DNA of 64,000 nt, taken from Haloprofundus halobius (GTDB lineage Archaea; Halobacteriota; Halobacteria; Halobacteriales; Haloferacaceae). The position numbers and the translations under genes were made by a program. The DNA lies in NCBI RefSeq assembly GCF_020097835.1, contig NZ_CP083667.1:186001-250000 (forward strand), written 5' to 3'. This document shows positions 11,401-36,085 of the stretch, one piece after another (within the stretch, counting starts at the first letter, position 1; each line of letters opens with the position of its first letter). The notes below the pieces were generated by a model. It saw nothing but the letters and a program-made list of their open reading frames with translations. It searched no databases and had not been told where the DNA came from.

Positions 11401-11411
11401 TCCCCCGTTGC

Positions 11412-11435
11412 CGTTACAAATTTAGTTATGTAACG
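11412..11435. repeat. inverted repeat / possible hairpin
   Basis: CGTTACA and TGTAACG pair perfectly (7 bp) around a 10-nt AT-rich loop, immediately after promoter-like copy 2. It could be an RNA hairpin or a dimeric operator. Confidence 0.4.
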
Positions 11436-13114: not shown

Positions 13115-13116
13115 CG

Positions 13117-14714: not shown

Positions 14715-14870
14715 GTCGCGGCTGTGGGGTGCACTCTGCGCCATTGTGGGCTATGTACTCGGTTCGTCGGGTAGTGGGTGTCCATCGTCCACCGTGGTCG
14801 ACATCCCGCAGATAGCTATCCGTGTTCGTCCGTCTCTCGGCCGGACATACAACTATCTATGACATTGCGA

Positions 14871-14880
14871 ACCATTATAT
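14871..14880 (+). promoter_or_regulatory. TATA-like box of the PadR gene
   Basis: ACCATTATAT, with its TATA part centred 27 nt before the ATG at 14904. It fixes the start there and predicts a leaderless mRNA. Confidence 0.55.
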
Positions 14881-14903
14881 CCGGAATCGTTGGGAATCGG
14901 CAT

Positions 14904-15185
14904 ATGAACGATTTGAGCGGATTCCAGCGGGACCTCCTGTACGTGATATCGGGCTTCGGCCAGCCGTCGGGTCAGGAGGTGAAAAACGAACTCGAACAGT
15001 ACGTCGACGGCGAGATCAACCACGGACAGCTCTACCCGAACCTCGACACGCTCGTCAACAAGGGCTACGTCGAGAAAGGGCCGATAGACCGACGGACGAA
15101 CTACTACGCGATTACCGACGAGGGCGTCGAAGCGATCAGAGAACGGCGGTCGTGGGAGCGGCAGTACATCTCCCCGACGCCCTGA
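14904..15185 (+). CDS. PadR family transcriptional regulator
   Basis: A 93-residue winged-helix protein. It starts MNDLSGFQRDLLYVISG, has the helix GQEVKNELEQY, the recognition region GQLYPNLDTLVNKGYVEKG and a wing DRRTNYYAITDEG. That is the compact PadR-like fold common in haloarchaea, without a long C-terminal dimerisation domain. The start at 14904 is fixed by the TATA-like element. It is divergent from the surface protein/PH-domain pair, with a palindrome in the shared upstream region, so control of that pair is plausible but unproven. Confidence 0.9.
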   Translation: MNDLSGFQRDLLYVISGFGQPSGQEVKNELEQYVDGEINHGQLYPNLDTLVNKGYVEKGPIDRRTNYYAITDEGVEAIRERRSWERQYISPTP

Positions 15186-17454: not shown

Positions 17455-19668
<2,214 letters not shown>

Positions 19669-19782
19669 ACTGAGCTTCGAGAAGCGGCTGAACGGGGGCC
19701 GTACGCAAACTCCTCCCCGTGGTGTCTCGGGGCGCTCCCCCGCAAAACCTCCTGTATTCGACATCGTGGTCGAACCTCTCCC

Positions 19783-19832
19783 TCACCCGAATCTCGGCGA
19801 CCGGCCGTCCAGAAACGCGTCGACGCCCTCCG
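19783..19832 (+). repeat. 50-bp direct repeat, left copy
   Basis: It matches 29869-29918 at 49 of 50 positions in the same orientation, 10,086 bp apart. It encodes (minus strand) the last residues and stop of an enoyl-CoA hydratase. The two copies bracket the glucosidase/TrmB/ABC transporter module. Confidence 0.85.
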
Positions 19833-19890
19833 GACGCTCATCGAGGCGGTCGGCGCGCACCGCAGCGTCGTCGAGTATCTCCCCGACACC
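19783..19890 (-). pseudogene. 3' remnant of an enoyl-CoA hydratase gene
   Basis: Read on the minus strand, the last 36 codons give DDAAVRADRLDERPEGVDAF, then LDGRSPRFG and a stop. This is a typical crotonase C terminus ending in EGVDAFLDGRSPRF like the intact gene at 29869-30636. The part before EGVDAF differs from the intact gene, so the remnant derives from a diverged copy or another family member. Nothing of the catalytic domain is left upstream, where the GH13 gene intervenes. It is a relic, not a functional gene. Confidence 0.7.
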
Positions 19891-19965
19891 GGAACGACCA
19901 GAAGTTCAAGTCGTCCATCTGACGTGAGTCCTCGGCGAGGACTCGAGCGTTCGTGGTGACGGTGC

Positions 19966-21657
19966 CTATTCTCGATACACGACCGCTTCATACGGTCGAA
20001 ACGTCTCGCCGTATGGGTCGGTCGGTGCGTCATCGTAGTTCGCGAGGAGCGTCCTCGTGACGGCTCGTTCCGTCGTCGGTGACTCGAACCGCGCGACTTC
20101 CGCTGACCAGTTGAGTACGACGAGCATCGCCTCGTCGTCGAGCGTCCGCGTGAACGCGTACAACTGGTCGTCGTCCGGAAGAAGTGGCTCGTACTCGCCG
20201 TAGACGAGGACATCGTGTTCGTTCCGGAGTTCGACGAGACGCCGGTAGAACTCCCATATCGAGTTCGCATCGGCACGTGCTGCCTCGACGTTCACGCGCT
20301 CGTAGTCGTCGTTGACGCCGAGCCACGGCTCTCCGGTCGTAAAGCCCGCCTCCGATCCATCGCTCCACTGCATCGGGGTTCGCGAGTGATCCCGGCTCCA
20401 GTAGTTGACGAGTTCACGAACGTCCTCGAAGGAGTCGACGGTCCCGGCTGAGAGCAGTTCCTCGACGGTGCCAACCGTCATCGGGTCGTCGATCTCGTCG
20501 AACGTTTCGAACTCGGCGTTAGTCATCCCGATCTCTTCGCCCTGATAGATGAACGGCGTGCCGCGCATCGTCAGACAGAACGTCGCGAGAAGCTTCGCTG
20601 ACGCCGTCCTGTACCGTTCGTCGCCGAACCGCGAGAGCGGACGCGGATAGTCGTGGTTCCCGAGGAACAGTGGATCCCAGCCGACGCCGTCGAGCGCCTC
20701 CTGTCGGCTGTCGATGATCTCTTTGAACTCGGTCAGTCGCCAGTCGGTGGAGGCATTCACGTCCCAGCGGCCGTCGGGTCCTTCGTCGACACTCAGATGG
20801 TCGAACTGGAATATCATGTCCAGTCCGACGCCGTCTTCACCGAGGTAGTCGAGTGCTTCGCCGACCGACGTGCCCCCCATCTCGGCGACGGTCACCGCAT
20901 CGTAGTTCGCGAACGCCTCGTCGTGCAGTTCACGGAGGTACTCTTCGATTCTCGGACCGTGCGTGAAATGGGTCGCTCCGACGACGGCCGCTTCCGGGTC
21001 GCCGTCGGGGTACCCCTCGGTCTTTGAGAGGTGGTTTATCGCGTCGAGTCGGAAGCCGTCGATACCCTTTTCGAGCCACCAGATAACCATCGACGTTATC
21101 TCGTCGCGAACCGTCGGGTTACGCCAGTTCAGATCCGGCTGGTTCTCGTCGAAGAGGTGGAGATACCACGCCTCGCGCTCGTCGTCGTAGGACCACGCCG
21201 AACCGCCGAAGAAGGACTCCCAGTTGTTCGGGGGTTCGTCGGGTGTGCCGTCCCGCCAGTGGTAGTACTCCTCGAACCCCTGCTCGCGGCGACGCGACCG
21301 CTGGAACCAGTCGTGCTGGTCCGAGGTGTGGTTGACGACGAGGTCCATGATGAGCCGAATTCCCTGTTCATGAAGCGTCGAGCGCAACCGATCCCAGTCG
21401 TCCATCGTTCCAAACTCGTCCATGATGGAGCGGTAATCGGCGATATCGTAGCCGTTGTCCGCGTTCGGTGACTCGTACACCGGAGAGAGCCACACGACGT
21501 CGACGCCGAGTGCGTCCAGATACGCTACCTTCTCTTCGATTCCGGGAATGTCGCCGACGCCGTCGCCGTCGCTGTCGTTGAAACTTCGCGGATAGATCTG
21601 GTAGAACACCGCTTCCTTCCACCACTCCCTGCTCTCGCCGGCGACCGTTTCAGGCAT
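19966..21657 (-). CDS. GH13 alpha-glucosidase (oligo-glucosidase type)
   Basis: A 563-residue cytoplasmic GH13 enzyme hydrolysing alpha-glucosidic bonds of short oligosaccharides. Conserved regions are DLVVNHTSDQHD (I), GFRLDAINHL with nucleophile D205 (II), VAEMGG with acid/base E259 (III) and GNHDYPR with D336 (IV). FYQIYPRSFNDSDGDGVGD near the N terminus is typical of oligo-1,6-glucosidase/maltase proteins. The residue after the nucleophile is Ala rather than the Val associated with 1,6-specific enzymes, so specificity is open. No signal peptide is seen. The start could be 21669 instead (four residues longer). It lies downstream of trmB on the same strand; the nearest good TATA element (21841-21850) would imply a leader of about 150 nt. 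Confidence 0.93.
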   Translation of the reverse strand: MPETVAGESREWWKEAVFYQIYPRSFNDSDGDGVGDIPGIEEKVAYLDALGVDVVWLSPVYESPNADNGYDIADYRSIMDEFGTMDDWDRLRSTLHEQGIRLIMDLVVNHTSDQHDWFQRSRRREQGFEEYYHWRDGTPDEPPNNWESFFGGSAWSYDDEREAWYLHLFDENQPDLNWRNPTVRDEITSMVIWWLEKGIDGFRLDAINHLSKTEGYPDGDPEAAVVGATHFTHGPRIEEYLRELHDEAFANYDAVTVAEMGGTSVGEALDYLGEDGVGLDMIFQFDHLSVDEGPDGRWDVNASTDWRLTEFKEIIDSRQEALDGVGWDPLFLGNHDYPRPLSRFGDERYRTASAKLLATFCLTMRGTPFIYQGEEIGMTNAEFETFDEIDDPMTVGTVEELLSAGTVDSFEDVRELVNYWSRDHSRTPMQWSDGSEAGFTTGEPWLGVNDDYERVNVEAARADANSIWEFYRRLVELRNEHDVLVYGEYEPLLPDDDQLYAFTRTLDDEAMLVVLNWSAEVARFESPTTERAVTRTLLANYDDAPTDPYGETFRPYEAVVYRE

Positions 21658-21862
21658 CGCCGCCCCCACTACAGACCCCGTCTCCCGTCCGTCGGCGGCG
21701 TTCGAGAACGACCGGCCCTCCCCGGTGACGGAACTCGGTATCGGTCGGCCTCGGCGCGGAGCTGTCGAATCTTCCTCTCGGCGTCGTATTGCTTTCCATC
21801 GAAGAGAGTACCTGTAGACTGTATCTCGGACCGGGGAGTGACTTAAAGCTATCCCGAAACAC

Positions 21863-21878
21863 GAAGAACTAGTTCTTC
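21863..21878. promoter_or_regulatory. perfect 16-bp palindrome, possible operator
   Basis: GAAGAACTAGTTCTTC is a perfect palindrome between trmB and the glucosidase gene. It sits about 20 nt upstream of a TTTAAG TATA-like element (minus strand), where an archaeal activator would bind. It could also act as a terminator stem for trmB. Confidence 0.45.
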
Positions 21879-21945
21879 TATAATCTCAACCGTATCAACG
21901 ACGAACTCTGACCGGAGCGGTTGCACGATCGTGAATAGCGAGGTG

Positions 21946-23001
21946 TCACGCTTCGTAGAGCGTCACGGTGGCACCGATCTGGTCTTCGATGAACGACCCT
22001 CGTCCGCCGACACTCACCTCTCCGTCTCCGGTCTCCAGGCGGAAGTTCGTCTCGAGCGTGAACTCGTTGGTGACCGGTTCGAGCAGTCCCTGTCGGATCT
22101 GGCTGACGGAACCGGACAGGTGTCCCCCCGACTCCGTTTCGATGTCGGCGCGGAGTTCGACGCCGTTTCGCATGTGTAACGTGGCCTGAAACACCGCGTG
22201 GCGGAAGCAAGAGAAGCGGGTCGGGAGCGGGTCGGGTTCGGCGACGTACAGGGTTTTCGAGGCGGGCCAGTACGTACCGAGGTGAAGACCTTGGACGGTA
22301 CCGGTGAGATTCGACTGCTCGACCTCGACGGCGGTTCCGTCGGCGTGCGTCCCGGCTAACATACCGGAGTCACCGACCATCGCGAACCGGTTGTCGGCGG
22401 TGTAGAGAAACGGGAGTTCCTCGTTCCAGTGACGAACGATACTCGCGACGCCGTCGAACCGGTCGGCGTCGGCGTCGGACGCATCGAGTCCGCCCAGCGA
22501 CAGAAGGACGAACACGCCGCGGTCGACCGCGTCGCGCAGCGACGGTTCGAGTTCGTCGAGAACGTACTCGGGAACCAGCACGATGAGTTCCTCCTCCGCC
22601 CGAGAGATGGCGTTCTTGAAGCGTTTGATCGCGGTCTCTCTTGATTTGACGATCTGGATCTCGGGTGACTGCGGCTCCGTCTCGTTGAACTGTCGCTCGA
22701 GCGCAGGCGTAATCGCCTCGAGTCGTTCGGAGAGCGCACCGATGGCCTCTCTCGGGGAAATCGCACGAATCGTCGTCGGCGACGCGTGGTCTTTCACCCG
22801 TACGAACCCCCGGCTCTCGAGCCGTTCGGCGATGTTGTACACCGCTCGTTGCGTGATGTCGGTGTCCTGTGAAACTGTCCTCGTCGTGACCTCTCCACGC
22901 GCCAGAATCGCGAGGTAGGCGTCCACTTCCTTCTCCGACAGTCCGAAGAGTTTCAACTCTCGCCGCAGTTCGGTATCCCCGTTCCGATCAGATTTCGCCA
23001 T
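21946..23001 (-). CDS. TrmB family sugar-responsive transcriptional regulator
   Basis: A 351-residue protein. The N-terminal TrmB winged HTH (residues about 10-90) includes LFGLSEKEVDAYLAILARGE and ITQRAVYNIAERLESRGFV. A helical linker follows, then the C-terminal sugar-binding domain (about 115-350) starting at EIQIVKSRETAIKRFKNAI. TrmB proteins in archaea repress or activate sugar uptake and glycolysis or gluconeogenesis genes depending on bound sugar. It lies between the glucosidase gene (same strand) and the divergent ABC transporter operon, so it most likely controls both. The start is supported by a TATA-like box at 23027-23036. Confidence 0.93.
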   Translation of the reverse strand: MAKSDRNGDTELRRELKLFGLSEKEVDAYLAILARGEVTTRTVSQDTDITQRAVYNIAERLESRGFVRVKDHASPTTIRAISPREAIGALSERLEAITPALERQFNETEPQSPEIQIVKSRETAIKRFKNAISRAEEELIVLVPEYVLDELEPSLRDAVDRGVFVLLSLGGLDASDADADRFDGVASIVRHWNEELPFLYTADNRFAMVGDSGMLAGTHADGTAVEVEQSNLTGTVQGLHLGTYWPASKTLYVAEPDPLPTRFSCFRHAVFQATLHMRNGVELRADIETESGGHLSGSVSQIRQGLLEPVTNEFTLETNFRLETGDGEVSVGGRGSFIEDQIGATVTLYEA

Positions 23002-23026
23002 CGATGTCCTCCGATACTACTCCACG

Positions 23027-23036
23027 TTTCATAAAT
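23027..23036 (-). promoter_or_regulatory. TATA-like box of the trmB gene
   Basis: CATTTATGAA on the minus strand, centred about 30 nt before the ATG at 23001. The 23002-23220 region also carries the divergent transporter promoter, so one regulator could act on both. Confidence 0.5.
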
Positions 23037-23182
23037 GCTTCACCAACCTCATCATACAATCGTCCAATTTTTCTGGCAAATGTGGTTGAATTAGCATATA
23101 CCAACGCCGTCATTCGCGTTCCTCCTTTCAATTCCCAACGAGCACAATCGATATAAATTCTAGTAGTAGTACTTCAACCAGA

Positions 23183-23190
23183 ATATTTAT
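23183..23190 (+). promoter_or_regulatory. TATA-like box of the ABC transporter operon
   Basis: ATATTTAT, about 34 nt before the ATG at 23221. It predicts a leader of only a few nucleotides. A TAGTAGTAGTACT stretch just upstream (23160-23172) may be part of an operator. Confidence 0.5.
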
Positions 23191-23220
23191 GAGGGTGAAT
23201 TGTAATCATTGAACAACACT

Positions 23221-25101
23221 ATGAGAGAGAACTACAAGCGAAGTAAGCAGCAATCGAACGGACGACGCCTCGGCCGACGACAGCTCTTGTACGGACTCGG
23301 CGCGGCGGGAACAGCTACGCTGTTGGCGGGTTGTGGTGGGCAGAGTCCGAGCAACTCCGAGGAAAGTGGCGGGGGCGGTAACGAAAGCGAAAACGAGAGC
23401 GCCGGCGGCGGCAACGAAGCCGGAAGCAACATCGACGCCACCGACGAGGAACTGAAGACCATCCAGGAGCTCGCACACGTCACCAATCAGGAGCTCCCGC
23501 TGCTCCCGGTGATGGAGAAGCTAGCCCAATCGTTCCAGACCACCGACGATTGGAACGTTCCCGAACCGGACTCCGACGAGCAGATGCACTACTGGCCGAC
23601 CGAGTGGCTCGTTCGCTGGGGCGAGTGGACCGCCGACGGCGACGACGACACGCTCACCCTCGCGCAATGGATAAATCCCCAAGACGCCCAGTACAACGAC
23701 TGGAACCCAGAGGGCGGTGCGGAGGTCGATCGAATGGTGTACGACCGGTTCATGAGCTACAACATCGTGGAGGCCGAGTACGACGGCTACGCCATCTCCG
23801 ACTGGGAGTTCGACGGCGACTCCATCTCGCTCACTCTCCGCGACGGATTGGTCTGGCACGACGGCGACGAGGCGACCGGGCAGGACGTCGCGAACCAGAT
23901 CAAACTGGATATGTACACCGGCGGGAGCCTCTCGGACTACGTCGACGACGTCGCCGAGAGCGTGAGTGTCGACGGCAACTCGGTGACGCTACAGTTCAAC
24001 GAGACACTCAACGAGCAGATCATCCTGTCGCTGCTCCAGCCGAAGTACCTGGCGGCGAAGGACAGCATCTTCGGCGAGTACGTGGAACTGTACGACAACG
24101 CGGAGAACGAGGACGAGGAAGCCGCAGCCTACGAGGAGCTCTCCTCGATGACGCTCGAAGAACCGGTCGGAACCGGTCCGTTCTCCTTCGAGGACGCCGA
24201 TTCGCGCCGGGCACTCGCGACGAAGTTCGAAGACCATCCGGACGCCGACCAGGTCGAAGTAGAGAACGTCGAGTATCTGTTCATGCCGGAGAACCAGAAC
24301 CGTTGGACGTCGCTACAGGAGGGCGAGATGGATGGCGACGCGACGCTTTTCATGCCGCAGAATCAGGTCGACCAGCTTCCGGATCACGTACAGATATCGT
24401 TGCTTCCGCGCCACTGGGGAATGGGCCTCATCTTCCAACACGACGACGACCACATGGGGAAGCGCGAGGTTCGACAGGCTATCGCCCACGCGGTCGACCG
24501 CGACGCAGTCGCCCAGTACTCGAGCGCCAACACCGACTCGAAGCTCGGCGTTTCGTACCCCTGTGGGCTGACGGGCGACTTCAGCGGGAAAGTCGAAGAC
24601 GAGTGGCTCGACGGGGTCACCGACCAGTTCAACCAGTACGCCTACGACACCGACAGAGCGGCGGAGCTGCTCGAGGAAGCGGGGTACTCGGAGGACGGCG
24701 ATGGGTGGGTCGACGAGAACGGCAACAGCTTGGAAGTACCGATAAAGGTACCGTCGGGCTTCTCTGACTGGGTCTCGGCAGCCGAGACGATCGTCAGCAA
24801 CCTCAACGACTTCGGAGTCGCGAGCGAGATGATCACGCGGGAGAACGGCGCGTACTTCGGCACCGACCTCCCCGACGGCGACTTCGTCGTCGCCTGCGAA
24901 GGGTGGGCCAGTTACGACCACGTCTACCCGTATTTCCACTTCGACCACATCTACACCGGGGGTTCGACAAGCCTCCAGTCGGTCGCGAACTTCCCCGAGG
25001 AGTACGAAGTTTCGCCGCTTCACGACGATATTCGCGAGGGTGGGACCGTCGACCCGACGGAGCTCATCGACTCGCTGGCGGTTCTCGAAACCGACGAGTA
25101 G
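23221..25101 (+). CDS. ABC transporter substrate-binding lipoprotein, family 5 (Dpp/Opp type)
   Basis: About 626 residues from the ATG at 23221. The Tat-type signal has RR at residues 19-20 (GRRQLLYGLG) and a lipobox LAGC ending at C38, so the protein should be folded before export and lipid-anchored. A Gly/Ser/Asn/Glu-rich linker (about 40-70) leads into an SBP_bac_5 domain to the end, with SWHDGDE-like core text LVWHDGDEATGQDV near residue 215. Family 5 proteins bind peptides, nickel or, in several archaea and Thermotogales, oligosaccharides. Linkage to TrmB and a GH13 glucosidase suggests a sugar ligand here. It is first in a six-gene operon. Confidence 0.92.
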   Translation: MRENYKRSKQQSNGRRLGRRQLLYGLGAAGTATLLAGCGGQSPSNSEESGGGGNESENESAGGGNEAGSNIDATDEELKTIQELAHVTNQELPLLPVMEKLAQSFQTTDDWNVPEPDSDEQMHYWPTEWLVRWGEWTADGDDDTLTLAQWINPQDAQYNDWNPEGGAEVDRMVYDRFMSYNIVEAEYDGYAISDWEFDGDSISLTLRDGLVWHDGDEATGQDVANQIKLDMYTGGSLSDYVDDVAESVSVDGNSVTLQFNETLNEQIILSLLQPKYLAAKDSIFGEYVELYDNAENEDEEAAAYEELSSMTLEEPVGTGPFSFEDADSRRALATKFEDHPDADQVEVENVEYLFMPENQNRWTSLQEGEMDGDATLFMPQNQVDQLPDHVQISLLPRHWGMGLIFQHDDDHMGKREVRQAIAHAVDRDAVAQYSSANTDSKLGVSYPCGLTGDFSGKVEDEWLDGVTDQFNQYAYDTDRAAELLEEAGYSEDGDGWVDENGNSLEVPIKVPSGFSDWVSAAETIVSNLNDFGVASEMITRENGAYFGTDLPDGDFVVACEGWASYDHVYPYFHFDHIYTGGSTSLQSVANFPEEYEVSPLHDDIREGGTVDPTELIDSLAVLETDE

Positions 25102-25141
25102 GCGACGACGTTGGAGACCACTTTCGGACACACGATACTCA

Positions 25142-26152
25142 ATGCACTACATACTCAGACGACTCGTCCAGGCAGCGATTACGGTGCTGTCGACGATCAC
25201 GCTGTCGTTCGTCCTGATCAGGATGATGCCCGGCAGTCCCGTCGACCGGCTTCGGGCGCAACTGCTCGAACGGAACTCGGGACTCTCCTCGGCCCAGATC
25301 CAGTACCGTATCGAACAGCAAACGAACATCGTACCGGACGAACCGCTGTACGTCCAGTACTTCGATTACATGACGAGCATCCTCACCGGCGACTTCGGCC
25401 GGTCGATCGTCAAATCGAATCAACCGGTCGCCGACATCCTCGCCAACGCCATCCCGTGGACGATATTCCTCATGTCGTCGGCGCTGTTTCTGGGGTTCGT
25501 CGTCGGCATCAGCCTCGGAGCGTTCATGGCGTATCGCGAGGGGAGTCTGTTCGACATCTCCTCGACGAGCGTATCGCTCACGCTCAACTCGACGCCGGAC
25601 TACATCGTCGGCTTGCTGCTGTTGACGTTCGTCGCCTACCAGCTCGGACTCTTTCCGACCGGCGGACGATACGCCTCCGGAGTCGATCCGGGGCTGTCGT
25701 TGGAGTTCTTCGCGAGCGTCCTCTACCACGGGGCGCTCCCAATTCTCTCGATGGCGATCGTCGCGTTCGGCGGGTGGGCGCTCGACATGCGCGGAAACAG
25801 CATCCGCATTCTCGGCGAGGACTACTTACACGTCGCTCGTCTCCGCGGACTCCCGGAGCGACGCATCGCGCTGCGCTACGTCGCGAGAAACGCCATTCTT
25901 CCGATGTACACTGGTCTGATGATCGCGATGGGTGCGATGCTCAACGGGTCGGTCATCCTCGAGAGCATCTACGCGTATCCCGGTCTCGGCTTCCGTATCA
26001 TCGAGGCGGTGAACAACCGCGACTACCCCGTTCTGATGGGCTGTTTCATCGTCATCACGTGTGCTATCGTGATCGGCATTCTGATCGCCGATCTCACCTA
26101 CAGCAGAATCGACCCGCGGGCGAAGGGAGGTGACTCTCGTGAAGCGTACTGA
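25142..26152 (+). CDS. ABC transporter permease, DppB/OppB type
   Basis: A 336-residue membrane protein starting MHYILRRLVQAAITVLSTI, the classical DppB N terminus. It has about six membrane helices and a large extracytoplasmic loop after TM1 (residues about 30-95). The cytoplasmic coupling (EAA) loop reads DYLHVARLRGLPERRI. The first ATG after the binding-protein stop was taken; the gap is 40 nt. Together with the DppC-like partner it forms the membrane channel of the importer. The next gene overlaps its end. Confidence 0.95.
   Translation: MHYILRRLVQAAITVLSTITLSFVLIRMMPGSPVDRLRAQLLERNSGLSSAQIQYRIEQQTNIVPDEPLYVQYFDYMTSILTGDFGRSIVKSNQPVADILANAIPWTIFLMSSALFLGFVVGISLGAFMAYREGSLFDISSTSVSLTLNSTPDYIVGLLLLTFVAYQLGLFPTGGRYASGVDPGLSLEFFASVLYHGALPILSMAIVAFGGWALDMRGNSIRILGEDYLHVARLRGLPERRIALRYVARNAILPMYTGLMIAMGAMLNGSVILESIYAYPGLGFRIIEAVNNRDYPVLMGCFIVITCAIVIGILIADLTYSRIDPRAKGGDSREAY
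26126..26133 (+). promoter_or_regulatory. ribosome binding site that decides the DppC start
   Basis: GGAGGTGA, fully complementary to the usual 3' end of archaeal 16S rRNA, ends 5 nt before GTG at 26139. It makes that GTG the likely start rather than the GTG at 26130 that lies inside the site. Confidence 0.6.
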
Positions 26153-27209
26153 CGAGCCACGGACGACCGCTGACGAGCGCCAGACAGACGGCGGGTCCGA
26201 CTTCGAGACGGTTGCCGACGTGCGACTATCGTCCTCCGAGCGATACAGACAGACGGCCGACGAACTTCTCATGACGCCAGCGCGGATCGTCTGGAGCGAC
26301 TGGCGAGCACGGATCGCCGTCTGTGTTCTCGGCTTCTATCTGTTTCTCGGTGTGTTCGGGCCGCTGATCGTGTCGGAACCCAGCCTGGGGGAGGGGCCGG
26401 TGTTGCTCGGCGCGTTCTACTCGCTCGAATTCCCGCTAGGGACGACCTCCCGCGGCGAGGACATCCTCGCGCAGGTCATCTACGCGACAAGACCCATGCT
26501 GCAGATGGTCGCCGCGGGCGCCGTGTTCACGGTCATCGTCGCGACGATCGTCGGAACGACCGCGGGCTACAAAGGCGGCGTCGTCGACAGCGTGTTGATG
26601 ACGCTGACCGACGTCATGCTGACGATTCCGGGCCTCCCGCTCGTCATCGTCCTCGTCACCGTCCTCGAGATCGGGGCGAACCCGTACCTCATCGGGGTGT
26701 TGTTGTCGGTCAACGCGTGGGCAGGACTCGCCAGAGCGCTCCGGTCGCAGGTGCTGACGCTGAGAGACGCCGAGTACGTCGAAGCGTCGAGAATCATGGG
26801 CGTACCGACGCGCGAGATTCTCTCCGTCGACATCATTCCGAACCTCATGCCATACATCACGATGAACTTCGTCAAGCAGGGTCGTGCAGTAATCTTCGGG
26901 TCGGTCGGACTGTACTTCCTCGGTATCTTACCGCAGAACTCCGACACACAGAACTGGGGACTCATGATAGACACCGCCGTGTCGGACGCGGGAGCTGTGA
27001 ACTCTGCGGCGGCGGTTCACTGGCTGCTCGCCCCCATCTTCGCAGTTATCACGTTCGCGATGGGGCTGACGCTGTTCGCGCAGTCCGCCGACCGCCTCTT
27101 CAACCCGCGGGTTCGCGCTCGCCACGCGAAGACGACGAGCGACGACGACGAACCGCCGGAGCGAAACGAGGGAGACGGAACCGCTCCCGCAGGGGTGATG
27201 CAGGGATGA
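26139..27209 (+). CDS. ABC transporter permease, DppC/OppC type
   Basis: About 356 residues from the GTG at 26139 (MKRTDEPRTTADE). It has an N-terminal cytoplasmic stretch of about 50 residues, TM1 (CVLGFYLFLGVFGPLIV), a periplasmic-side segment with LGTTSRGEDIL (typical DppC) and then the six-helix permease domain. The coupling loop is DAEYVEASRIMGVPTREI. The tail is cytoplasmic and charged. It overlaps the DppB gene by 14 bases and the first ATPase gene by 4 bases, so translation is coupled. Confidence 0.95.
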   Translation: MKRTDEPRTTADERQTDGGSDFETVADVRLSSSERYRQTADELLMTPARIVWSDWRARIAVCVLGFYLFLGVFGPLIVSEPSLGEGPVLLGAFYSLEFPLGTTSRGEDILAQVIYATRPMLQMVAAGAVFTVIVATIVGTTAGYKGGVVDSVLMTLTDVMLTIPGLPLVIVLVTVLEIGANPYLIGVLLSVNAWAGLARALRSQVLTLRDAEYVEASRIMGVPTREILSVDIIPNLMPYITMNFVKQGRAVIFGSVGLYFLGILPQNSDTQNWGLMIDTAVSDAGAVNSAAAVHWLLAPIFAVITFAMGLTLFAQSADRLFNPRVRARHAKTTSDDDEPPERNEGDGTAPAGVMQG

Positions 27210-28243
27210 CGGCGTCGAACGGAGGCGACCCTATCCTCGAAGTTCGCGATGCGAGCGTCCAGTTCGAGATGGACCGCGGTACGTCGACGGTACTCAACGC
27301 CGTCGACATCGACGTTGGACGGCGAGAGATTCTCGGTGTCGTCGGCGAATCCGGGTCGGGCAAGTCGATGCTCGCGAACGTGATGCTGGACGCCGTCGAG
27401 GACTCGGGACGGACTACCGGCCAGGTGTGGTATCACCCGAAAGACGGCGAGTCGGTCGACGTGCTCGACCTCTCGTCGTCGGAACTTCAGCGACTCCGCT
27501 GGGAGGAAATCTCGATGGTGTTTCAGGGGGCGCTGAGCTCGTTCAATCCGACGATGGCGATCCGTGGGCATTTCGAGGAGACGCTCGAAGCCCACGGGTA
27601 CGACATGACGGCGGGTATGCGGCGCGCCCGGGAACTGCTCTCGGATCTGTATCTCGACCCCGACCGCGTGCTCGACTCGTACCCCCACGAACTCTCCGGC
27701 GGGATGTCTCAGCGCGCGCTCATCGCGCTGAGTCTCGTCCTCGAACCGAACGTGTTGGTGATGGACGAACCGACCGCGGCGCTGGACCTCTTGATGCAGC
27801 GGTCGATACTGAGTCTGCTCTCCGATCTCAAGGAGAAGTACGAACTTACTGTCGTGTTCATCACGCACGACCTCCCGCTCGTCGCGGGCCTGGCCGACAG
27901 ACTCGCGGTGATATACGCCTTCGAGCTACTCGAAGTCGGCCCCGTCGAGGAACTCGTCCGAACGTCGGCACATCCCTACACCGAGGCGTTGCTACAGGCG
28001 GTTCCGAACCTCAACGCGTCTCTGGAGACGATGCGGCCGATATCCGGCTCTGCACCGGACCCGGTGAACATCCCGAGTGGATGTACGTACGCGCCGCGCT
28101 GTCCGCTAGCAGACGAACAGTGTCGGGCCCAAGAACCGCCATTTCACGACGTGACCGAGAACCACGAGTCGGCCTGTTTCCACTGGGAGGCAGTCGTCGA
28201 GGGGAGCGACTCCGATGCCGTCACGTCGGGGGGTGACCGATGA
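27206..28243 (+). CDS. ABC transporter ATP-binding protein, DppD/OppD type
   Basis: A 345-residue ATPase. Walker A is GESGSGKS, the Q-loop region has MVFQGALSSFNP, the signature is LSGGMSQR, Walker B is LVMDEPTAALD and the switch His is in FITHDL. The C-terminal oligopeptide/dipeptide extension after residue about 270 contains the Cys-rich CTYAPRCPLADEQC segment found in the family. It pairs with the following ATPase to energise import. Start and stop both overlap neighbours by ATGA. Confidence 0.97.
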   Translation: MTASNGGDPILEVRDASVQFEMDRGTSTVLNAVDIDVGRREILGVVGESGSGKSMLANVMLDAVEDSGRTTGQVWYHPKDGESVDVLDLSSSELQRLRWEEISMVFQGALSSFNPTMAIRGHFEETLEAHGYDMTAGMRRARELLSDLYLDPDRVLDSYPHELSGGMSQRALIALSLVLEPNVLVMDEPTAALDLLMQRSILSLLSDLKEKYELTVVFITHDLPLVAGLADRLAVIYAFELLEVGPVEELVRTSAHPYTEALLQAVPNLNASLETMRPISGSAPDPVNIPSGCTYAPRCPLADEQCRAQEPPFHDVTENHESACFHWEAVVEGSDSDAVTSGGDR

Positions 28244-29403
28244 GCGACGACCCCGTCGTCTCGTTGCAGAACGTCGAAGTTCACTTCGAAAAGGAGCAGG
28301 GACTCATCGAGAGTTTCCGGTCTGACCCTGACGTCGTTCGGGCGGTCGACGACGTCTCGCTTGACATCGGGTCCAACGACGTCGTCGCGCTCGTTGGCGA
28401 GTCGGGATGCGGAAAGACGACGCTCGGCAAGACCGCCATCGGCGTCCAGCGCCCGACCGGCGGGAGCGTCAGATACCGCGGGCAGGACGTTTGGGACGCC
28501 AAAAGCGGAGGTGGCGAAATTCCGTTCGCCGAGATCCGTCGGTCGCTGCAGATCATCCACCAGGACCCGGGAGCCGCGATAAACCCCAATCGAACGGTGA
28601 TGAAGAGTCTCACCGCGCCGTTGAAGCGGTGGCAGCCCGAGATGGCGGCCGAAGACAGGCGCGCTCGCGTCCTCCGGATGCTCGAGCGCGTCGGGATGCG
28701 CCCGGCGGACGACTACGCGTACCGATACCCGCACCAACTGAGCGGCGGTGAGCAACAGCGCGTCGCACTCGTGCGTGCGCTGCTGATGAACCCGGACCTG
28801 ATTCTGGCCGACGAGGCGGTGTCGGCGCTCGACGTCTCGCTGCGCGTCGAGACGATGGACCTCCTCTTGGAACTGCAGGACCAGTTCGACACGTCGTTCC
28901 TGTTCATCTCGCACAACCTCTCGAATGCGAGATATCTGGCCGAGAAATCCGGCGGGCGAATCGGCATTATGTATCTCGGTCAGCTGGTCGAGATCGGCCC
29001 CGCCGACGAAGTGCTCGGAAACCCGAAACACCCCTACACGAAGGTGCTCCGCTGGGCGACGGCGGACGTCGACCCCGACGAGGCGATGGACGAAGCGCCG
29101 CCGATTCGAACCATCGACATCCCCGATCCGGTCGACCCGCCGTCGGGCTGTCGGTTCCACACGCGCTGTCCGGTCGGCCGGGAGGTGTGTACCCGACAGA
29201 GCCCGACACTCGAAGACAGCGGCGACGGAATCGAACGAGACTCCGACGGAACCGACGTCGACCGGGGTCACTGCGCGGCGTGTTTCCGGTCGGATCCCGA
29301 CCACGAGTACTGGGAGAGCGAACCGCTCGACGGGACCGACGAAGCGATGCTTGACCGAGCGAACCGGTCGACCAATTTCGCGACCGAATCAGATTCCGAG
29401 TGA
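28240..29403 (+). CDS. ABC transporter ATP-binding protein, DppF/OppF type
   Basis: A 387-residue ATPase. Walker A is GESGCGKTT, the signature is LSGGEQQR, Walker B is LILADEAVSALD and the switch His is in FISHNL. The C-terminal family extension with CRFHTRCPVGREVC ends in an acidic, non-conserved tail of about 60 residues. It overlaps the previous ATPase by ATGA and completes a full importer (binding protein, two permeases, two ATPases). Nine bases after its stop a small coupled ORF begins. Confidence 0.97.
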   Translation: MSDDPVVSLQNVEVHFEKEQGLIESFRSDPDVVRAVDDVSLDIGSNDVVALVGESGCGKTTLGKTAIGVQRPTGGSVRYRGQDVWDAKSGGGEIPFAEIRRSLQIIHQDPGAAINPNRTVMKSLTAPLKRWQPEMAAEDRRARVLRMLERVGMRPADDYAYRYPHQLSGGEQQRVALVRALLMNPDLILADEAVSALDVSLRVETMDLLLELQDQFDTSFLFISHNLSNARYLAEKSGGRIGIMYLGQLVEIGPADEVLGNPKHPYTKVLRWATADVDPDEAMDEAPPIRTIDIPDPVDPPSGCRFHTRCPVGREVCTRQSPTLEDSGDGIERDSDGTDVDRGHCAACFRSDPDHEYWESEPLDGTDEAMLDRANRSTNFATESDSE

Positions 29404-29412
29404 GACCAGAGG

Positions 29413-29571
29413 ATGAGTAGCACCGCAGTACCGGACCGGAACGCCTGGGTCCGACGGCGACTCGGTCGGCATCGTCAATCGTCGAGCGGGATGTTCACGA
29501 CCGTTCGGGCACAGCTCGGCATAGTCAGGGCTCGACTCTACCGGTCGGTGATCGGAGGCGAGTCGCCATGA
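29413..29571 (+). CDS. small basic protein (52 aa), coupled to the transporter operon
   Basis: The ATG lies 9 nt after the DppF-like stop, preceded by AGAGG as a possible ribosome binding site; the stop overlaps the next ATG (ATGA). The peptide is unusually basic for a haloarchaeon, with WVRRRLGRHR near residues 12-21 and VRARLYRSVIGG near the end, and one amphipathic or weakly hydrophobic middle. No family is recognised. It could be an accessory subunit of the transporter or a decayed gene; the precise junctions at both ends favour a real gene. Confidence 0.5.
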   Translation: MSSTAVPDRNAWVRRRLGRHRQSSSGMFTTVRAQLGIVRARLYRSVIGGESP

Positions 29572-29780
29572 GCTCGTTCTTCGGCTTCCTGTTCACGATG
29601 AACACCATCCTGCTGGTGTTGCTCGCGATCACCTTCCCCTTCACCGCTCCGGGATCTTCCGCGCGGGCGATCTCGTACCTGAGCTTCGCGATAATACTCG
29701 CGTCGCTCACGGGACTGACACTCTTTTCGGCCTGGAGGGGACGGCGCTCCAGCGATACCGACGATTCGGGGACGACGTAA
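29568..29780 (+). CDS. small two-helix membrane protein (70 aa)
   Basis: It starts at the overlapping ATGA. Two hydrophobic helices (residues about 3-26 and 34-54) are joined by a short loop (TAPGSSARAI), followed by a charged tail WRGRRSSDTDDSG. No family is known to me. It is the last gene of the transporter operon, translationally coupled to the 52-residue ORF. Small membrane proteins at the end of importer operons can be regulatory subunits, but nothing here proves that. Confidence 0.65.
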   Translation: MSSFFGFLFTMNTILLVLLAITFPFTAPGSSARAISYLSFAIILASLTGLTLFSAWRGRRSSDTDDSGTT

Positions 29781-29868
29781 TCCGGTCCGAGTCGCTTTCA
29801 CCGGCGCGGCCACGGGCCGTGGAACGTCCACCAAGTCGCAGGCTCCGCTTCTGTCTCCAACCACGTAC

Positions 29869-29918
29869 TCACTCGAATCTCGGCGACCGGCCGTCCAGAA
29901 ACGCGTCGACGCCCTCCG
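29869..29918 (+). repeat. 50-bp direct repeat, right copy
   Basis: It is the 3' end of the intact enoyl-CoA hydratase gene, matching 19783-19832 with one mismatch (position 5). It marks the right border of the 10-kb transport module. Confidence 0.85.
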
Positions 29919-30636
29919 CGTGCGACTCGGTCGCGTACGCCTGCACCTGGAGGTTCGCCTCGCGGTCGAGGCCGTCGCGGAACGGTCGACCGAGGTTCTC
30001 GTGGAGGCCGTGCTTTATCAGCGCGAGCGTCTCCGTCGGCTTCGACGCGAGCGTGTCGAGCAACTCGGCGACGGCGTCGTCGAGTTCTGCGGACCCGACG
30101 ACGTCGTTGACGAGTTCCATCTCCAGCGCCTCGTCGGCGTCGAACATCCGCCCCGTCATCGCCAACTCCTTCGCCCGTCTGAGACCGACCAACCGCGGCA
30201 AGAGGACGGTCCCACCGCTGTCGGGAACGAGGCCGACGTTGACGAACACCTCGCCGAATCTGGCTCGCTCGGCGGCGACGACGAAGTCACAGGCAGCGGC
30301 GACGTTCGTCCCCGCGCCGACCGCGTCGCCGTTGACCTTCGCGACGACGGGAAACGGGGCCGTGAGAATCGCCTCGACGACGGCGTTGAGCGTCTCCTGG
30401 ACTCGTTCGTACGCCTCCGCGGGCGTCTCGTCGCGGTCGCGCATCGCTTCGAGGTCGCCACCGGCGCTGAACGCCTTGCCCTCGCCGGTGAGGACGGCCG
30501 CCCGCGCGTCGTCGTCCGCCGCCGCTTCGAGCGCCTCGACCAGTTCCCGCGCCGTCGACTCGGTGAACGCGTTTCGCACCTCGGGACGGTCGAACGTGAG
30601 CGTCCACACCCGGTCGTCGACTTCGGTCCGTACCAT
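29869..30636 (-). CDS. enoyl-CoA hydratase/isomerase family protein (PaaG-like)
   Basis: A 255-residue crotonase-fold protein acting on CoA thioesters in the cytoplasm. The oxyanion-hole segments are GEGKAFSAGGDLEAM (residues about 50-65) and a later Gly-rich helix start. The active-site stretch NVGLVPDSGGTVLLPRLVG has Asp where classical hydratases have Glu, as in PaaG (ring-epoxide isomerase) and some enoyl isomerases, and the first catalytic Glu is not obvious. Hydration activity should therefore not be assumed. A TATA-like element at 30658-30667 supports the start. It is divergent from the thiolase/HMGCS-like pair, a CoA-ester neighbourhood. Confidence 0.9.
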   Translation of the reverse strand: MVRTEVDDRVWTLTFDRPEVRNAFTESTARELVEALEAAADDDARAAVLTGEGKAFSAGGDLEAMRDRDETPAEAYERVQETLNAVVEAILTAPFPVVAKVNGDAVGAGTNVAAACDFVVAAERARFGEVFVNVGLVPDSGGTVLLPRLVGLRRAKELAMTGRMFDADEALEMELVNDVVGSAELDDAVAELLDTLASKPTETLALIKHGLHENLGRPFRDGLDREANLQVQAYATESHAEGVDAFLDGRSPRFE

Positions 30637-30657
30637 GTGAACCCCTCCGAGCGGTCG

Positions 30658-30667
30658 GTGTTAAACG
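30658..30667 (-). promoter_or_regulatory. TATA-like box of the enoyl-CoA hydratase gene
   Basis: CGTTTAACAC on the minus strand, centred about 27 nt before the ATG at 30636. Confidence 0.45.
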
Positions 30668-30755
30668 TGGCTCCCGTCTCGTCGGAAGCCCGCCGAGACA
30701 CACGACGGCGTGCACCTCCTATGGTTTTTTCTCGCTCTCGGTCCCTTCTCGGGGT

Positions 30756-31931
30756 ATGACAGACGCGTACGTCGTCGGAGCCGGACAGTCGCCGTTCGGG
30801 TCGTTTCCCGACGAGAGCTACCGGTCGCTGTTCGCGACGGCGTTCGACCGTGCGACGGCGAGCGTCGACGCGGAACTCGACTCCGGGCGAATCGACGAGG
30901 CGTTCGTCGGCACCCTCGGCGTCGGCGGCCGACAACTCGGGCTGAGCGGACCGGCGGTCACAGAACACGTCGGACTCCACGGCGTCCCGACGACGCGTGT
31001 CGAGAACGCCTGCGCCGCCAGCGGCTACGCGTTCCGCAGCGCCGTCGCGGCGGTCCGCGCCGGACTGGCCGACGTCGCGTTGGCGGGCGGCTACGAGGTG
31101 ATGACCGACACGAGCTCGGACCACACGAAGTGGTGGCTCGGCGTCAGCGGCGAAACGGAGTGGGAGCGCCTCTCGGGAACGACGTTTTCCGGCGTGTACG
31201 CGCAGCTGGCGAGCGCGCACATGACCGAGTACGGGACGACGACCGAAGACCTCTCGCGTGTCGCCGTGAAGAACCACAAAAACGGCGCCCGGAACCCGAA
31301 CGCACACCTCGGCTTCGAGTGCTCGCTCGACGACGCGATGTCGGCACCGACGGTGGCGGACCCGCTGAACCTGTATCACTGCTGTCCGACGACCGACGGG
31401 GCGAGCGCCGTCATCGTCGCGAGCGAGGAGGTGGCCTTCGAACTCAGCGACGACCCGGTTCGAGTCGCCGGCATGGGCGCGTCGAGCGGCCACGTGGGGC
31501 TGTTCCAGCGCGACACGCTCACGAGTATCCCCGCGAGTCGTCGCGCCGCCGACGCCGCCTACGGGGAGGCGGGAATCGGACCGAACGACGTCGACGTCGC
31601 GGAGGTCCACGACTGCTTCGCCATCGCCGAACTCGTCGCGTACGAGGACCTCGGCTTCTGCGACCCCGGGAAGAGCGGCACACTGCTCCGCGAGGGCGTC
31701 ACCGACCCCGACGGTCGACTCCCGGTCAACACCTCCGGCGGACTGAAGTCGAAGGGTCACCCCATCGGCGCGACGGGCACCGGTCAGATCGTCGAACTGT
31801 TCGAGCAACTGCGTGGCGAGGCGCACACGCAGGTCGACGAGCCGCGATACGGCCTCGCGCACAACGTCGGCGGCAGCGGCGGCGGCGCGACGGTCCACCT
31901 GTTCGAGCGGACGAACGGGGGGGAGCGATGA
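30756..31931 (+). CDS. archaeal-type thiolase (acetyl-CoA acetyltransferase family)
   Basis: A 391-residue thiolase. The nucleophilic Cys is C86 in RVENACAASGYAF, the second-domain motif is EVHDCFAIAEL and the base His is H335 in GGLKSKGHPIGATG. Archaeal thiolases of this type condense or cleave acyl-CoA and work in a complex with a DUF35 protein and HMG-CoA synthase. Its stop overlaps the ATG of exactly such a partner, here an HMGCS-like/DUF35 fusion. A TTTTTT-type promoter element lies about 28 nt upstream. The direction (acetoacetyl-CoA synthesis or side-chain degradation) is not clear; the PaaG-like neighbour hints at catabolism. Confidence 0.92.
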   Translation: MTDAYVVGAGQSPFGSFPDESYRSLFATAFDRATASVDAELDSGRIDEAFVGTLGVGGRQLGLSGPAVTEHVGLHGVPTTRVENACAASGYAFRSAVAAVRAGLADVALAGGYEVMTDTSSDHTKWWLGVSGETEWERLSGTTFSGVYAQLASAHMTEYGTTTEDLSRVAVKNHKNGARNPNAHLGFECSLDDAMSAPTVADPLNLYHCCPTTDGASAVIVASEEVAFELSDDPVRVAGMGASSGHVGLFQRDTLTSIPASRRAADAAYGEAGIGPNDVDVAEVHDCFAIAELVAYEDLGFCDPGKSGTLLREGVTDPDGRLPVNTSGGLKSKGHPIGATGTGQIVELFEQLRGEAHTQVDEPRYGLAHNVGGSGGGATVHLFERTNGGER

Positions 31932-33364
31932 ACGCCATCGACGCCGTCGGCGTCGCGCTCCCCCGACTTCGAATTTCGACCGGCGAAATCGCCGACGCGT
32001 GGGGACGCTACTCCGGCGCTGGAATAGCGCAGAAGACCGTCGCCGCGGCGGACGAGGACGCGCTGACGCTCGGTATCGAAGCAGCCGAGTCGGCGTTCGC
32101 TCGCGGCTCAGTCGACCCGAACGGCGTCTCGACTCTCTGCTTCGCAACGACGACGCCGCCGCTCGACACCGAGGAAGTCGTCCCGCGACTCGTTCGCGCG
32201 CTCGGACTCCCGTCGTCGACGATGACGCGGACCTTCACCCAGAGCACGCTCGCGGGGACTGAGGCGCTCGACTCGGGTCTCGACGCCGACGGTCCCGCGC
32301 TCGTCGTCGCCGCCGACCTCCCGCGCGGCGACCCGGCGAGCGTCGACCACCCGTTCGGGGCGGGGGCGGCGGCGTTTCTGCTCGCAGAGACGGGGTCCGT
32401 CGAACGTCTCGGTTCGGCGAATCACGTCGACGAGTTCGCGGGTATCAGCTACCGCGAACGCGGTAGTGACGAACTGACTGGCCTCGACATCACCAGCTAC
32501 GAGCGAAACGCGATTCGCGAGAGTGTGACGAGCGCCGTCGAGCGTCTCGATACGGACGCCGGCGTCGACGAGTTCGAACTCTCCGCCATCGACGGCGCGG
32601 CGGTGTTCCAGCCCGACGCTCGGATGCCCTCGCGTGCGGTAACCGACCTCCCGATACCTCGCGACGCGCTCGCTCGCGGAACGGTCGTCGACCGAATCGG
32701 CGACGCGGGCGCGGCGGGCGTCCCGCTCGGTCTGGCCGCCGCGCTCGACGCCGCGGGCGACGACGACCGAACGCTCGCCGTCTTCGCCGGCAGCGGTGGC
32801 GGGGCGACGGCGATACTGTTCGAGGGCCACGTCGACAGCGACTTCGACGCCGAACTCGACGCTGGGTCCTCGGTCACGTATCCGGAGTACCTCCGCGAGC
32901 GTGGCTACCTCGGCACCGTCGACGTTGCCGGCGGCGGCGCGCACGTCAGCCTCCCGACGTGGCAGCAATCGCTCGACCAGCGCTACAGACTCGCGGCCGG
33001 ACGCTGCCCCGAGTGCGGCGCGCTCACGTTCCCGCCGGAAGGGGCGTGCCGAAGTTGCCACCGCGGCGTCGCGTTCGAGCGGGTCGAACTCTCTCGAACG
33101 GGCGTCGTCCGCGCGGTCACGTCCATCGGCCACGGCGGCGCGCCGCCGGAGTTCGCCGAGCAGCAGCGACGCGACGGCGCCTACGACGTCGCCATCGTCG
33201 AACTCGAACACGAGGGCGAGTCGGCGATGCTCCCGGCGCAACTGACGGACTCGGAGACGGGGACGGTCGAGGTCGGCGACGAGGTTCGCGCAGTCGTCCG
33301 GAAACTCTACGAGCAGGAGGGCGTTCCGCGGTACGGGGCGAAGTTCGCACCCGTCGAACGGTGA
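31928..33364 (+). CDS. HMG-CoA synthase-like protein fused to DUF35 zinc-ribbon/OB domain
   Basis: A 478-residue two-domain protein. Residues about 1-340 are an HMG-CoA-synthase/ketoacyl-synthase-like fold (starts NAIDAVGVALPRLRISTGEI, ends with FAGSGGGATAILFEGHV). Residues about 350-478 are a DUF35 module with a zinc ribbon (C360, C363, C374, C377) followed by an OB-fold. In archaeal HMG-CoA synthase the nucleophilic Cys precedes Lys-Ala-Gly-Thr; here that site reads STLAGT (S106, T107), so the Cys appears absent. The fusion may be a scaffold or substrate-channelling subunit for the thiolase, with which it overlaps by ATGA, rather than a true HMG-CoA synthase. Confidence 0.85.
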   Translation: MNAIDAVGVALPRLRISTGEIADAWGRYSGAGIAQKTVAAADEDALTLGIEAAESAFARGSVDPNGVSTLCFATTTPPLDTEEVVPRLVRALGLPSSTMTRTFTQSTLAGTEALDSGLDADGPALVVAADLPRGDPASVDHPFGAGAAAFLLAETGSVERLGSANHVDEFAGISYRERGSDELTGLDITSYERNAIRESVTSAVERLDTDAGVDEFELSAIDGAAVFQPDARMPSRAVTDLPIPRDALARGTVVDRIGDAGAAGVPLGLAAALDAAGDDDRTLAVFAGSGGGATAILFEGHVDSDFDAELDAGSSVTYPEYLRERGYLGTVDVAGGGAHVSLPTWQQSLDQRYRLAAGRCPECGALTFPPEGACRSCHRGVAFERVELSRTGVVRAVTSIGHGGAPPEFAEQQRRDGAYDVAIVELEHEGESAMLPAQLTDSETGTVEVGDEVRAVVRKLYEQEGVPRYGAKFAPVER

Positions 33365-33473
33365 GATCGCACAGATATCCGATTTCCGAGAAACGTACGT
33401 GCGCTCCGACGTGCGAGAGACGTCCGTCACCGAGAACCGACCCCCGGAAGGAGACGCAGGCGCTCGGACTGGG

Positions 33474-34436
33474 CTACCTCGCGGTCGTGTACATCAGCGG
33501 GACCCCGTCGATCCGGTCGACGCGTCCCGTCGACACCAACGCCGAGAGGTGCGCGGCCGCCTCGCCGGCACCCATCTTCACGTGGATACCGCGCATCTCG
33601 CCGAACAGTCGCGTGGCAACCTGCCACGGGGTGAGCGGACCGTCCGCTTCGAGACAGTCGCGCACCCGCCTCGTTCGCGTTTCGTGGTGAGAGAGAATCT
33701 CGTCGATGCGCGAGGTGAGCGACAGTTCCGAGCCGTGGCCCGGCTGCGCCATCTCCGGGAACTCCGACGCCACCGCGCGCGCTCGAAGCCGAAACAACGT
33801 CTCCCGATACGTCCCCAGCGGGTCGTCGACGCGGGTGTCGCTGCCGCCGACGTTGGGCGTGTACGTCGGCAACACCGCGTCGCCGACGAACAGAGCACCG
33901 TCGCTGCTCCCGTCACCGACCACGGCGAACGCGGCGTGCCCGAGCGTATGTCCCGGCGTGTGAACCACCTCGACGTCCGCAACGGTGTCGCCGTCGACGA
34001 GCGTCTCGACCGGATACGCGTCGGGCATCGGTGAAGGTTCGTCACCCTCGACTACTGCCTCGACGGTCTCCTCCGGAACACCCCACGTCGCCAGCCTCCG
34101 GGCGTCCCGTTGGACGCGCTCTCGCCGGGCGGTCGCGTAGTCGGTGACGAACGCTGCGTCGTCTTCGTGCATGTAGAGGGTCGCGCCGCTCGCCTCGCAG
34201 AGTCGGGGTGCGAGTCCCGCGTGGTCGACGTGCCAATGCGAGACCAGCACCGACGAGACGTCGGCGAGTTCGAGGCCGGCGTCCGAGAGGCCGGCGACGA
34301 GACGTTCCCACGCACCGTCGACCGAGGATCCCGGGTCGACGACGACGCCGCGGTCGGAGAGTAGATACGCGCTGTTCGTCCCCTCGGGACTGCCCTCGCT
34401 CACTTCGATTCGGTGGACTCGGTGGATTCGACTCAC
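33474..34436 (-). CDS. MBL-fold metallo-hydrolase
   Basis: A 320-residue metallo-beta-lactamase-fold protein. The metal motif HWHVDHAG is preceded by NSAYLLSDRGVVVDPGS, and later ligands are in HTPGHTLGH and VGDAVLP. Residues about 230-320 form a C-terminal helical extension (EILSHHETRTRRVRDCLE, then PLTPWQVATRLFG) typical of the MBL-plus-winged-helix hydrolases related to LACTB2. The substrate is unknown; relatives act on thioesters or RNA. It is transcribed alone, convergent with the thiolase operon and divergent from an MFS carrier. Confidence 0.92.
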   Translation of the reverse strand: MSRIHRVHRIEVSEGSPEGTNSAYLLSDRGVVVDPGSSVDGAWERLVAGLSDAGLELADVSSVLVSHWHVDHAGLAPRLCEASGATLYMHEDDAAFVTDYATARRERVQRDARRLATWGVPEETVEAVVEGDEPSPMPDAYPVETLVDGDTVADVEVVHTPGHTLGHAAFAVVGDGSSDGALFVGDAVLPTYTPNVGGSDTRVDDPLGTYRETLFRLRARAVASEFPEMAQPGHGSELSLTSRIDEILSHHETRTRRVRDCLEADGPLTPWQVATRLFGEMRGIHVKMGAGEAAAHLSALVSTGRVDRIDGVPLMYTTAR

Positions 34437-34571
34437 TCACCGAACGGCTACGTGCCGCCCGATGAAACCAGTACCGCCCGATGAAACCGGCACCGCCCGC
34501 GGGCCATCTTCGACCGTTCGGATTCTTCCGGTTTGCGCAGAGCTAACTGTCGGTACCGTAACTACCCCCAC

Positions 34572-35903: not shown

Positions 35904-36085
35904 ACGCACCGACAGAAATCCGGGGAACGACCGTCTCCGCGCATCTCTCCGACGGCGAGTGATGGTTGTGACTGTCTCTCTGGTCGTGCGTCTGTCTCTC
36001 AGACGGCGAGTTCCATGTTTGTGCGACTTACTCGTGTCGTGATGTACAACTGAACGTTGATTGTGCCGACGGTCGTACGTTCCGT

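Follow-up and report, generated by a model that had tools for sequence, protein, structure and literature searches.

Haloarchaeal replication origins that are linked to an orc/cdc6 initiator gene are known to be variable, and the closest described cases concern species-variable orc1 genes with associated repeats that are missing in some species, where other genes stand in their place (PMC4441112, PMC3528665). Such genes and origins occur in different surroundings (Wu et al. 2012, PMC3528665), and insertion coupled with deletion has destroyed origins in haloarchaea (Wu et al. 2014, PMC4441112). From the side of DNA repair, cut plasmids in Haloferax volcanii were mended independently of Ku at microhomologies of 3-5 bp, with deletions (PMC2700283), and microhomology joining contributes to translocations and rearrangements (PMC7776575); statements on all of these reports refer to the portions of them at hand. 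Here we describe a locus in a 64,000-nucleotide stretch of Haloprofundus halobius DNA (the window, G000:C2:186001-250000) in which the 3' end of a gene for enoyl-CoA hydratase/isomerase (ECH) recurs as a 50-bp direct repeat on the far side of a sugar-uptake module. The repeat is probably the scar of the loss of an orc1 gene at the ECH end, with the sugar cassette now in the same gap. The window belongs to a 422.8-kb contig, probably a megaplasmid to judge from the plasmids of relatives, in a genome of 3.95 Mb in five contigs.

With the described origins (PMC4441112, PMC3528665) the locus shares an orc1 gene with repeats that is present in one species, missing in others and replaced by other genes. 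It differs from them in that no transposase or integrase was found in the open reading frames (ORFs) scanned, and in that the scar holds a 50-bp copy of a neighbouring gene end joined at a 14-base stretch. As in Haloferax end joining, the junction lies in a short sequence common to both parents and DNA was lost; the shared stretch is however 14 bases long rather than 3-5 bp, an extra tract was copied, and the event took place in a natural genome and not in a plasmid assay (PMC2700283). The process, insertion coupled to origin loss, is a known one, and the locus is a new, base-resolved case of it. No report of such scars turned up in a literature search, which is not proof that none has been published.

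The two repeat copies, 19783-19832 and 29869-29918, lie in the same orientation (+) and match in 49 of 50 bases, as the first-pass annotation of this DNA had claimed. Within them a core of 45 bases is exact (19788-19832 and 29874-29918), and no other copy of this core with up to three mismatches is present in the window, nor in 100 shuffled versions. Note that here and below chance was assessed with dinucleotide shuffles, 100, 300 or 500 in number depending on the test. The repeat search gave a weak extension to 63 nt at 90% identity, and both copies start with the stop-codon triplet of ECH. Compared with the ECH ends of five other Haloprofundus genomes, the left copy agrees in 36-41 of 46-48 aligned bases, and because its match to the ECH end of its own genome is so much closer it is best read as a young, local copy of the resident ECH end. 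When the genome was searched with 19669-19965 and the best 40 of 150 candidates were scored, the query came up along with the ECH end and a single match of 24 bases; the ECH end as a dispersed repeat was rejected, as no third copy beyond that short match appeared in this set.

The DNA that follows the left copy had been taken for the continuation of a diverged ECH C terminus. This could not be upheld. Against the orc1 gene of the sister species G002, both 19833-19965 and 19833-19922 score 124, a value reached in none of 500 shuffles each (shuffle maximum 34-35), whereas the longer segment scores 27 against the ECH gene, reached by 76 of 500 shuffles, and the shorter one alone reaches a level matched by 34 of 500. 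Single-letter shuffles with laxer scoring had favoured an ECH resemblance of 19833-19965 (reached by 0 of 300 for the + strand and by 40 of 300 for the opposite one), a result on which we do not rely since dinucleotide shuffles and stricter scoring gave the figures above; a faint ECH resemblance after the left copy does remain, in GC-rich coding DNA. The supposed hydratase end is therefore an orc1 C terminus on the other strand, and the left copy as part of a longer ECH paralogue was rejected on the same two scores. What is left, on the + strand, are the final 105 bases of an orc1/cdc6 gene, 88% identical to the intact G002 gene (G002:C2:317146-317251), with substitutions, one missing base that shifts the frame and the same TGA stop at the end. 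This remnant stands in the same place as the intact gene in G002, with the module now between it and ECH. The window contains no intact functional initiator at this locus, the 3' end alone being left with its missing base. No close homologue of the G002 orc1 protein was found elsewhere in the genome (best match 44% identical, among the best 18 of 31 candidates scored), and the other DNA matches, among the best 40 of 252 candidates scored, were the ECH end or partial ones of 65-71%, besides short ones of 79%.

The passage from the ECH copy into the orc1 remnant falls in CGTCGACGCCCTCC (19818-19831), which agrees in 14 of 14 positions with the ECH gene of the window and in 13 of 14 with orc1 of G002. 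As this stretch is common to both genes, the exchange fell within it or at its edge. The first-pass annotation had proposed that homologous recombination between the ends of ECH paralogues brought the module in, and both the repeat and module-free sites in relatives, on which this proposal drew, are real. It is nevertheless orc1 and not ECH that follows the left copy, no ECH paralogue stands at the left position, and apart from the two copies the genome yielded weak partial ECH-like matches on contig C1 and the 24-base match. With a recent duplicate of the resident ECH end on the left, fused to what remains of orc1, we give recombination between paralogue ends very little credence.

The same locus was compared in four sister species of the genus (G001-G004) and in strain MHR1, five related genomes in all, of which MHR1 and G001 are not independent samples because they are 98.3% identical in the ECH block. 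In G002 the order is P450, five copies of TTTACTGGAAA, orc1 and ECH. The orc1/cdc6 gene is intact there, encodes 415 amino acids and is convergent with ECH, with 34 bases between the stop codons, and its protein passes the NCBIfam cut-off of TIGR02928 (454 versus 181 bits). The five repeats lie between P450 and orc1 (L066:11394-12363), as would be the case for an orc1-linked origin, and the 11-mer has no copy in the window. Repeats of this type resemble origin-recognition boxes, and the repeat-orc1 region of G002 looks like a replication origin, by prediction. In G001, G003, G004 and MHR1, P450 is the immediate neighbour of ECH, at a distance of about 70-170 bases as measured from one matched or annotated gene to the other. 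The gap of G004 holds an exact 19-base orc1 end (19/19) including the stop, which is positioned and oriented as orc1 is in G002 (0 of 300 shuffles), and no leftover of orc1 or the repeats was detectable in the gaps of G001, G003 and MHR1 (292, 207 and 300 of 300 shuffles reach the score). Four intergenic segments of the window likewise gave none (59 of 300 shuffles for 35904-36086, 271 for 19669-19782, 227 for 19923-19965 and 43 for 29781-29868), and 19669-19782 resembles neither 29781-29868 (281 of 500) nor ECH (220 of 500). The module is beside ECH in none of the five related genomes, each of which has one ECH end at this site; the proposed look for a module-free site thus succeeded in every case, as an insertion predicts.

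Scars of different length in two lineages, together with one intact gene, suggest that most likely orc1 stood at ECH in an ancestor before the lineages split. In a tree of a single block the outgroup attaches on the window branch with a support of 0.991, and G002 is nested. If this root is right, the nested position of G002 calls for two or more losses of orc1; with a root on the G002 branch, a single loss and subsequent erosion would be enough. A bolder version, which we hold tentatively and consider less than even in probability, sees an ancestral second origin that was erased repeatedly at this locus, leaving orc1 scars of varying size, the convergent gap as a landing site for metabolic cassettes, and the ECH-orc1 chimera as a repair patch of about 50 bases copied at the 14-base stretch.

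Farther afield, the best matches to the G002 orc1 protein in the window genome, G001, G003 and G004 are 43-44% identical, and proteins 83-84% identical to it occur in G025, G068 and G031. As neither ECH nor P450 gave a match in the 15-16 kb of sequence around each of these three, orc1 genes of the G002 type occur in varied surroundings. About 3 kb from the G031 gene, 214 bases match the PadR region of G002 (L153:4089-4302), by chance or by shared history, and a 2007-codon ORF follows directly after the related orc1 of G025 (L151:8794-14817). At an E value of 1e-15 neither orc1 nor P450 was found in the Halobellus locus L005 or in 22 loci from further genera and families (L011-L032, covered with flanks of about 1.5 kb), of which L028 has thiolase alone and the other 21 have an ECH. 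A search of genome contigs gave two ECH loci, and among the ECH and module matches listed for other genera none lay close together.

The flanks of the locus have been rearranged as well. The catalase-peroxidase gene katG is beside ECH in none of the four sister species, being on other contigs in G001 and G003 and about 24 and 220 kb away in G002 and G004, and the DNA downstream of katG is recognisable to 19705 at most (in G002); the left neighbour is therefore new. On the other side, P450 is found at the MFS end of the ECH-to-MFS block (29869-35903) in the window but on the ECH side in all five related genomes, so the block is inverted relative to P450. In relatives the MFS gene is followed by a PadR gene; in the window the PadR gene (14778-15185) is far removed from the MFS gene. 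Separately, a stretch of about 2.2 kb (10919-13116) held one 99-codon ORF in a simple ORF scan and possibly consists of decayed genes.

The new left flank also bears on another explanation, in which the cassette, the orc1 end and the ECH end were excised as a circle between the 14-base stretches and re-entered another copy of the genome through one crossover within the 50-base ECH end, which would make the 50-bp repeats true integration repeats. The order of ECH copy, orc1 end, module, ECH copy and ECH is exactly the one predicted, and Haloferax, being polyploid, can carry as many as 20 copies of its genome (PMC2700283). Two steps at short homology are required, however, and orc1 or spacer DNA would be expected to the left of the left copy; as katG DNA is found there instead, with no similarity of 19669-19782 to the orc1 region (271 of 300 shuffles), a further rearrangement would have to be assumed. 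We consider such a circle unlikely.

The module itself (19966-29780, about 9.8 kb) occupies what in G002 is the 34-base convergent gap between orc1 and ECH. Its borders are not exactly those of the repeat, which had been said to flank it precisely: the bracketing holds only roughly, with 90 nt of orc1 remnant and 43 nt of spacer before the first module gene on the left, and on the right a distance of 88 nt from the last module gene to the repeat copy there. The combination of a GH13 glucosidase, TrmB and an Opp-type ABC transporter marks a cassette of the alpha-glucoside type. Since the best solved relatives of the GH13 enzyme are oligo-1,6-glucosidases and alpha-glucosidases, alpha-glucosides are the presumed substrate, and the cassette likely takes up alpha-gluco-oligosaccharides, which would then be cleaved inside the cell, and TrmB would sense the sugar, as judged from the families. 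For permease 1, ORF 25040-26152 is likelier to be the gene than 25111-26133, as the former carries the Pfam match and the latter has no NCBIfam match. The small protein at the right end aligns with scores of 119, 76 and 65 to small proteins near the cassettes of Halomarina, Halobaculum and Haloarcula, the neighbouring ORF 29413 with 18-21. The features of the locus are collected in the table.

Table. Features of the ECH-orc1 locus in the window, with the evidence for each assignment
Feature	Position	Strand	Basis
katG catalase-peroxidase, new left neighbour	17491-19668	+	Pfam peroxidase
Left copy of the ECH 3' end	19783-19832	+	49/50 to 29869-29918
14-base stretch, passage from ECH copy into orc1 remnant	19818-19831	+	14/14 to own ECH, 13/14 to G002 orc1
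orc1/cdc6 3'-terminal remnant (105 nt)	19818-19922	+	88% to G002:C2:317146-317251
Spacer between orc1 remnant and alpha-glucosidase; GC-rich hairpin by eye	19923-19965		Sequence read
GH13 alpha-glucosidase / oligo-1,6-glucosidase	19966-21669	-	Pfam Alpha-amylase 2.9e-153
TrmB-type sugar-sensing regulator	21946-23001	-	Regulator_TrmB 1.6e-41, TrmB 5e-15; NCBIfam TrmB matches under cut-offs
ABC solute-binding protein, family 5; start codon uncertain	23209-25101	+	SBP_bac_5 1.2e-40
ABC permease 1 (Opp/Dpp type), frame uncertain	25111-26133	+	BPD_transp_1 4.4e-36 on overlapping ORF 25040-26152
ABC permease 2 (Opp/Dpp type)	26130-27209	+	BPD_transp_1; Opp/Nik permease models
ABC ATPase 1, probable start inside ORF 26717-28243	27209-28243	+	ABC_tran, oligo_HPY; OppD-like
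ABC ATPase 2	28240-29403	+	ABC_tran, oligo_HPY; DppF/OppF-like
Small membrane-type protein, taken as last module gene	29568-29780	+	Local alignment; no NCBIfam match
Right copy, formed by the ECH gene's own 3' end	29869-29918	+	Repeat search, window match
Intact enoyl-CoA hydratase/isomerase (ECH)	29869-30636	-	Pfam ECH_1 6.9e-60
Thiolase, zinc-ribbon, MBL-fold and MFS genes; conserved block with ECH	30756-35903		Family matches, comparison
Cytochrome P450, far-side neighbour of orc1 in G002	36086-37315	+	Pfam p450; beside ECH in relatives

The sugar cassette as such is ordinary. When the best five candidates per genome were scored, its DNA found some match in 57 of 60 genomes, at 65-79% identity to parts of it among the matches listed, the longest of these in G040 with 70% over query bases 3545-9420. 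Plasmids of Natrinema versiforme and Haloarcula sp. JP-L23 carry, like the window, a family-5 solute-binding protein, two permeases, one or more ATPases, TrmB and a GH13 alpha-glucosidase. The same transporter type with TrmB is present on plasmids of Halobaculum roseum and Halomarina sp. BND7, but with amylase-family and GH15 enzymes in the former and a GH15 enzyme in the latter. In all four, TrmB is downstream of the transporter, whereas it lies between glucosidase and transporter in the window. With a G+C content of 0.619 the module lies below the window as a whole (0.650) and below the ECH-MFS block (0.691), which is compatible with a later arrival without proving it.

When the 3' end of a gene is duplicated so that it stands on both sides of an insert, the geometry is the classic one of an attachment (att) site. 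The direct repeat at the module shows just this arrangement, known from integrase-mediated islands, and it starts at a stop codon, so that an integrase-type insertion at an att site made of the ECH 3' end has to be weighed. No integrase family was found in the module ORFs scanned or in nine flanking ORFs, with small or overlapping ORFs such as 29413 outside the scan, which within that scope bears out the earlier remark that none is visible. In addition, orc1 DNA adjoins the left border on its inner side, and this DNA also occurs at the corresponding locus of G002 and, reduced to a tail of 19 bases, at that of G004; the left flank, too, differs from the neighbour in relatives. On balance an integrase is very improbable as the agent.

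We thus return to the loss of orc1 as the origin of the repeat. To judge from the scars, the ancestral replicon would have had the order P450, repeats, orc1, 34 bp and ECH, as in G002. In the window lineage the body of orc1 and the repeats were lost and the last 105 bases left, and a copy of the ECH 3' end is joined to this stub at the common 14 bases. This may have come about by microhomology-mediated joining or strand switching with a templated insert of about 50 bases, or by unequal exchange or tandem duplication between the two 14-base stretches and later loss of the left unit. The DNA of katG became the left neighbour, and relative to P450 the ECH-MFS block came to lie in inverted order. 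The cassette now lies in the convergent gap between the stop codons of orc1 and ECH; it may have arrived earlier than the loss of orc1, together with it or later. Similar cassettes in other families support this course of events. Of the first-pass proposal that the module entered by recombination at the ECH end, the module-free sites in relatives and the repeat as a trace of rearrangement remain; the repeat more likely records the loss of orc1 than the entry of the module, and the two events may have been coupled.

Several points weigh against this explanation. The microhomologies used in Haloferax are of 3-5 bp, and the portion of that report at hand does not describe a copied junction tract of about 50 bp (PMC2700283). 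The repeat alone fits a templated patch and a tandem duplication with later loss equally well, and either the loss of orc1 or the insertion of the module may have come first. No strain of the window species was found that could serve as an intermediate, in collections that may omit near relatives, and the origin role of the G002 region is a predicted one.

As it stands, the locus presents a base-resolved fossil of a lost replication-initiator gene, of which one intact and one nearly erased version exist in sister species, so that sequence comparison reveals the steps by which an orc1 gene is lost from a replicon with several such genes. With its patch, the junction may moreover illustrate error-prone archaeal repair in a natural setting. 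If the tentative version with repeated erasure is true, the ECH-orc1 chimera would show archaeal break repair copying a patch of about 50 bases from a neighbouring gene at a 14-base stretch.

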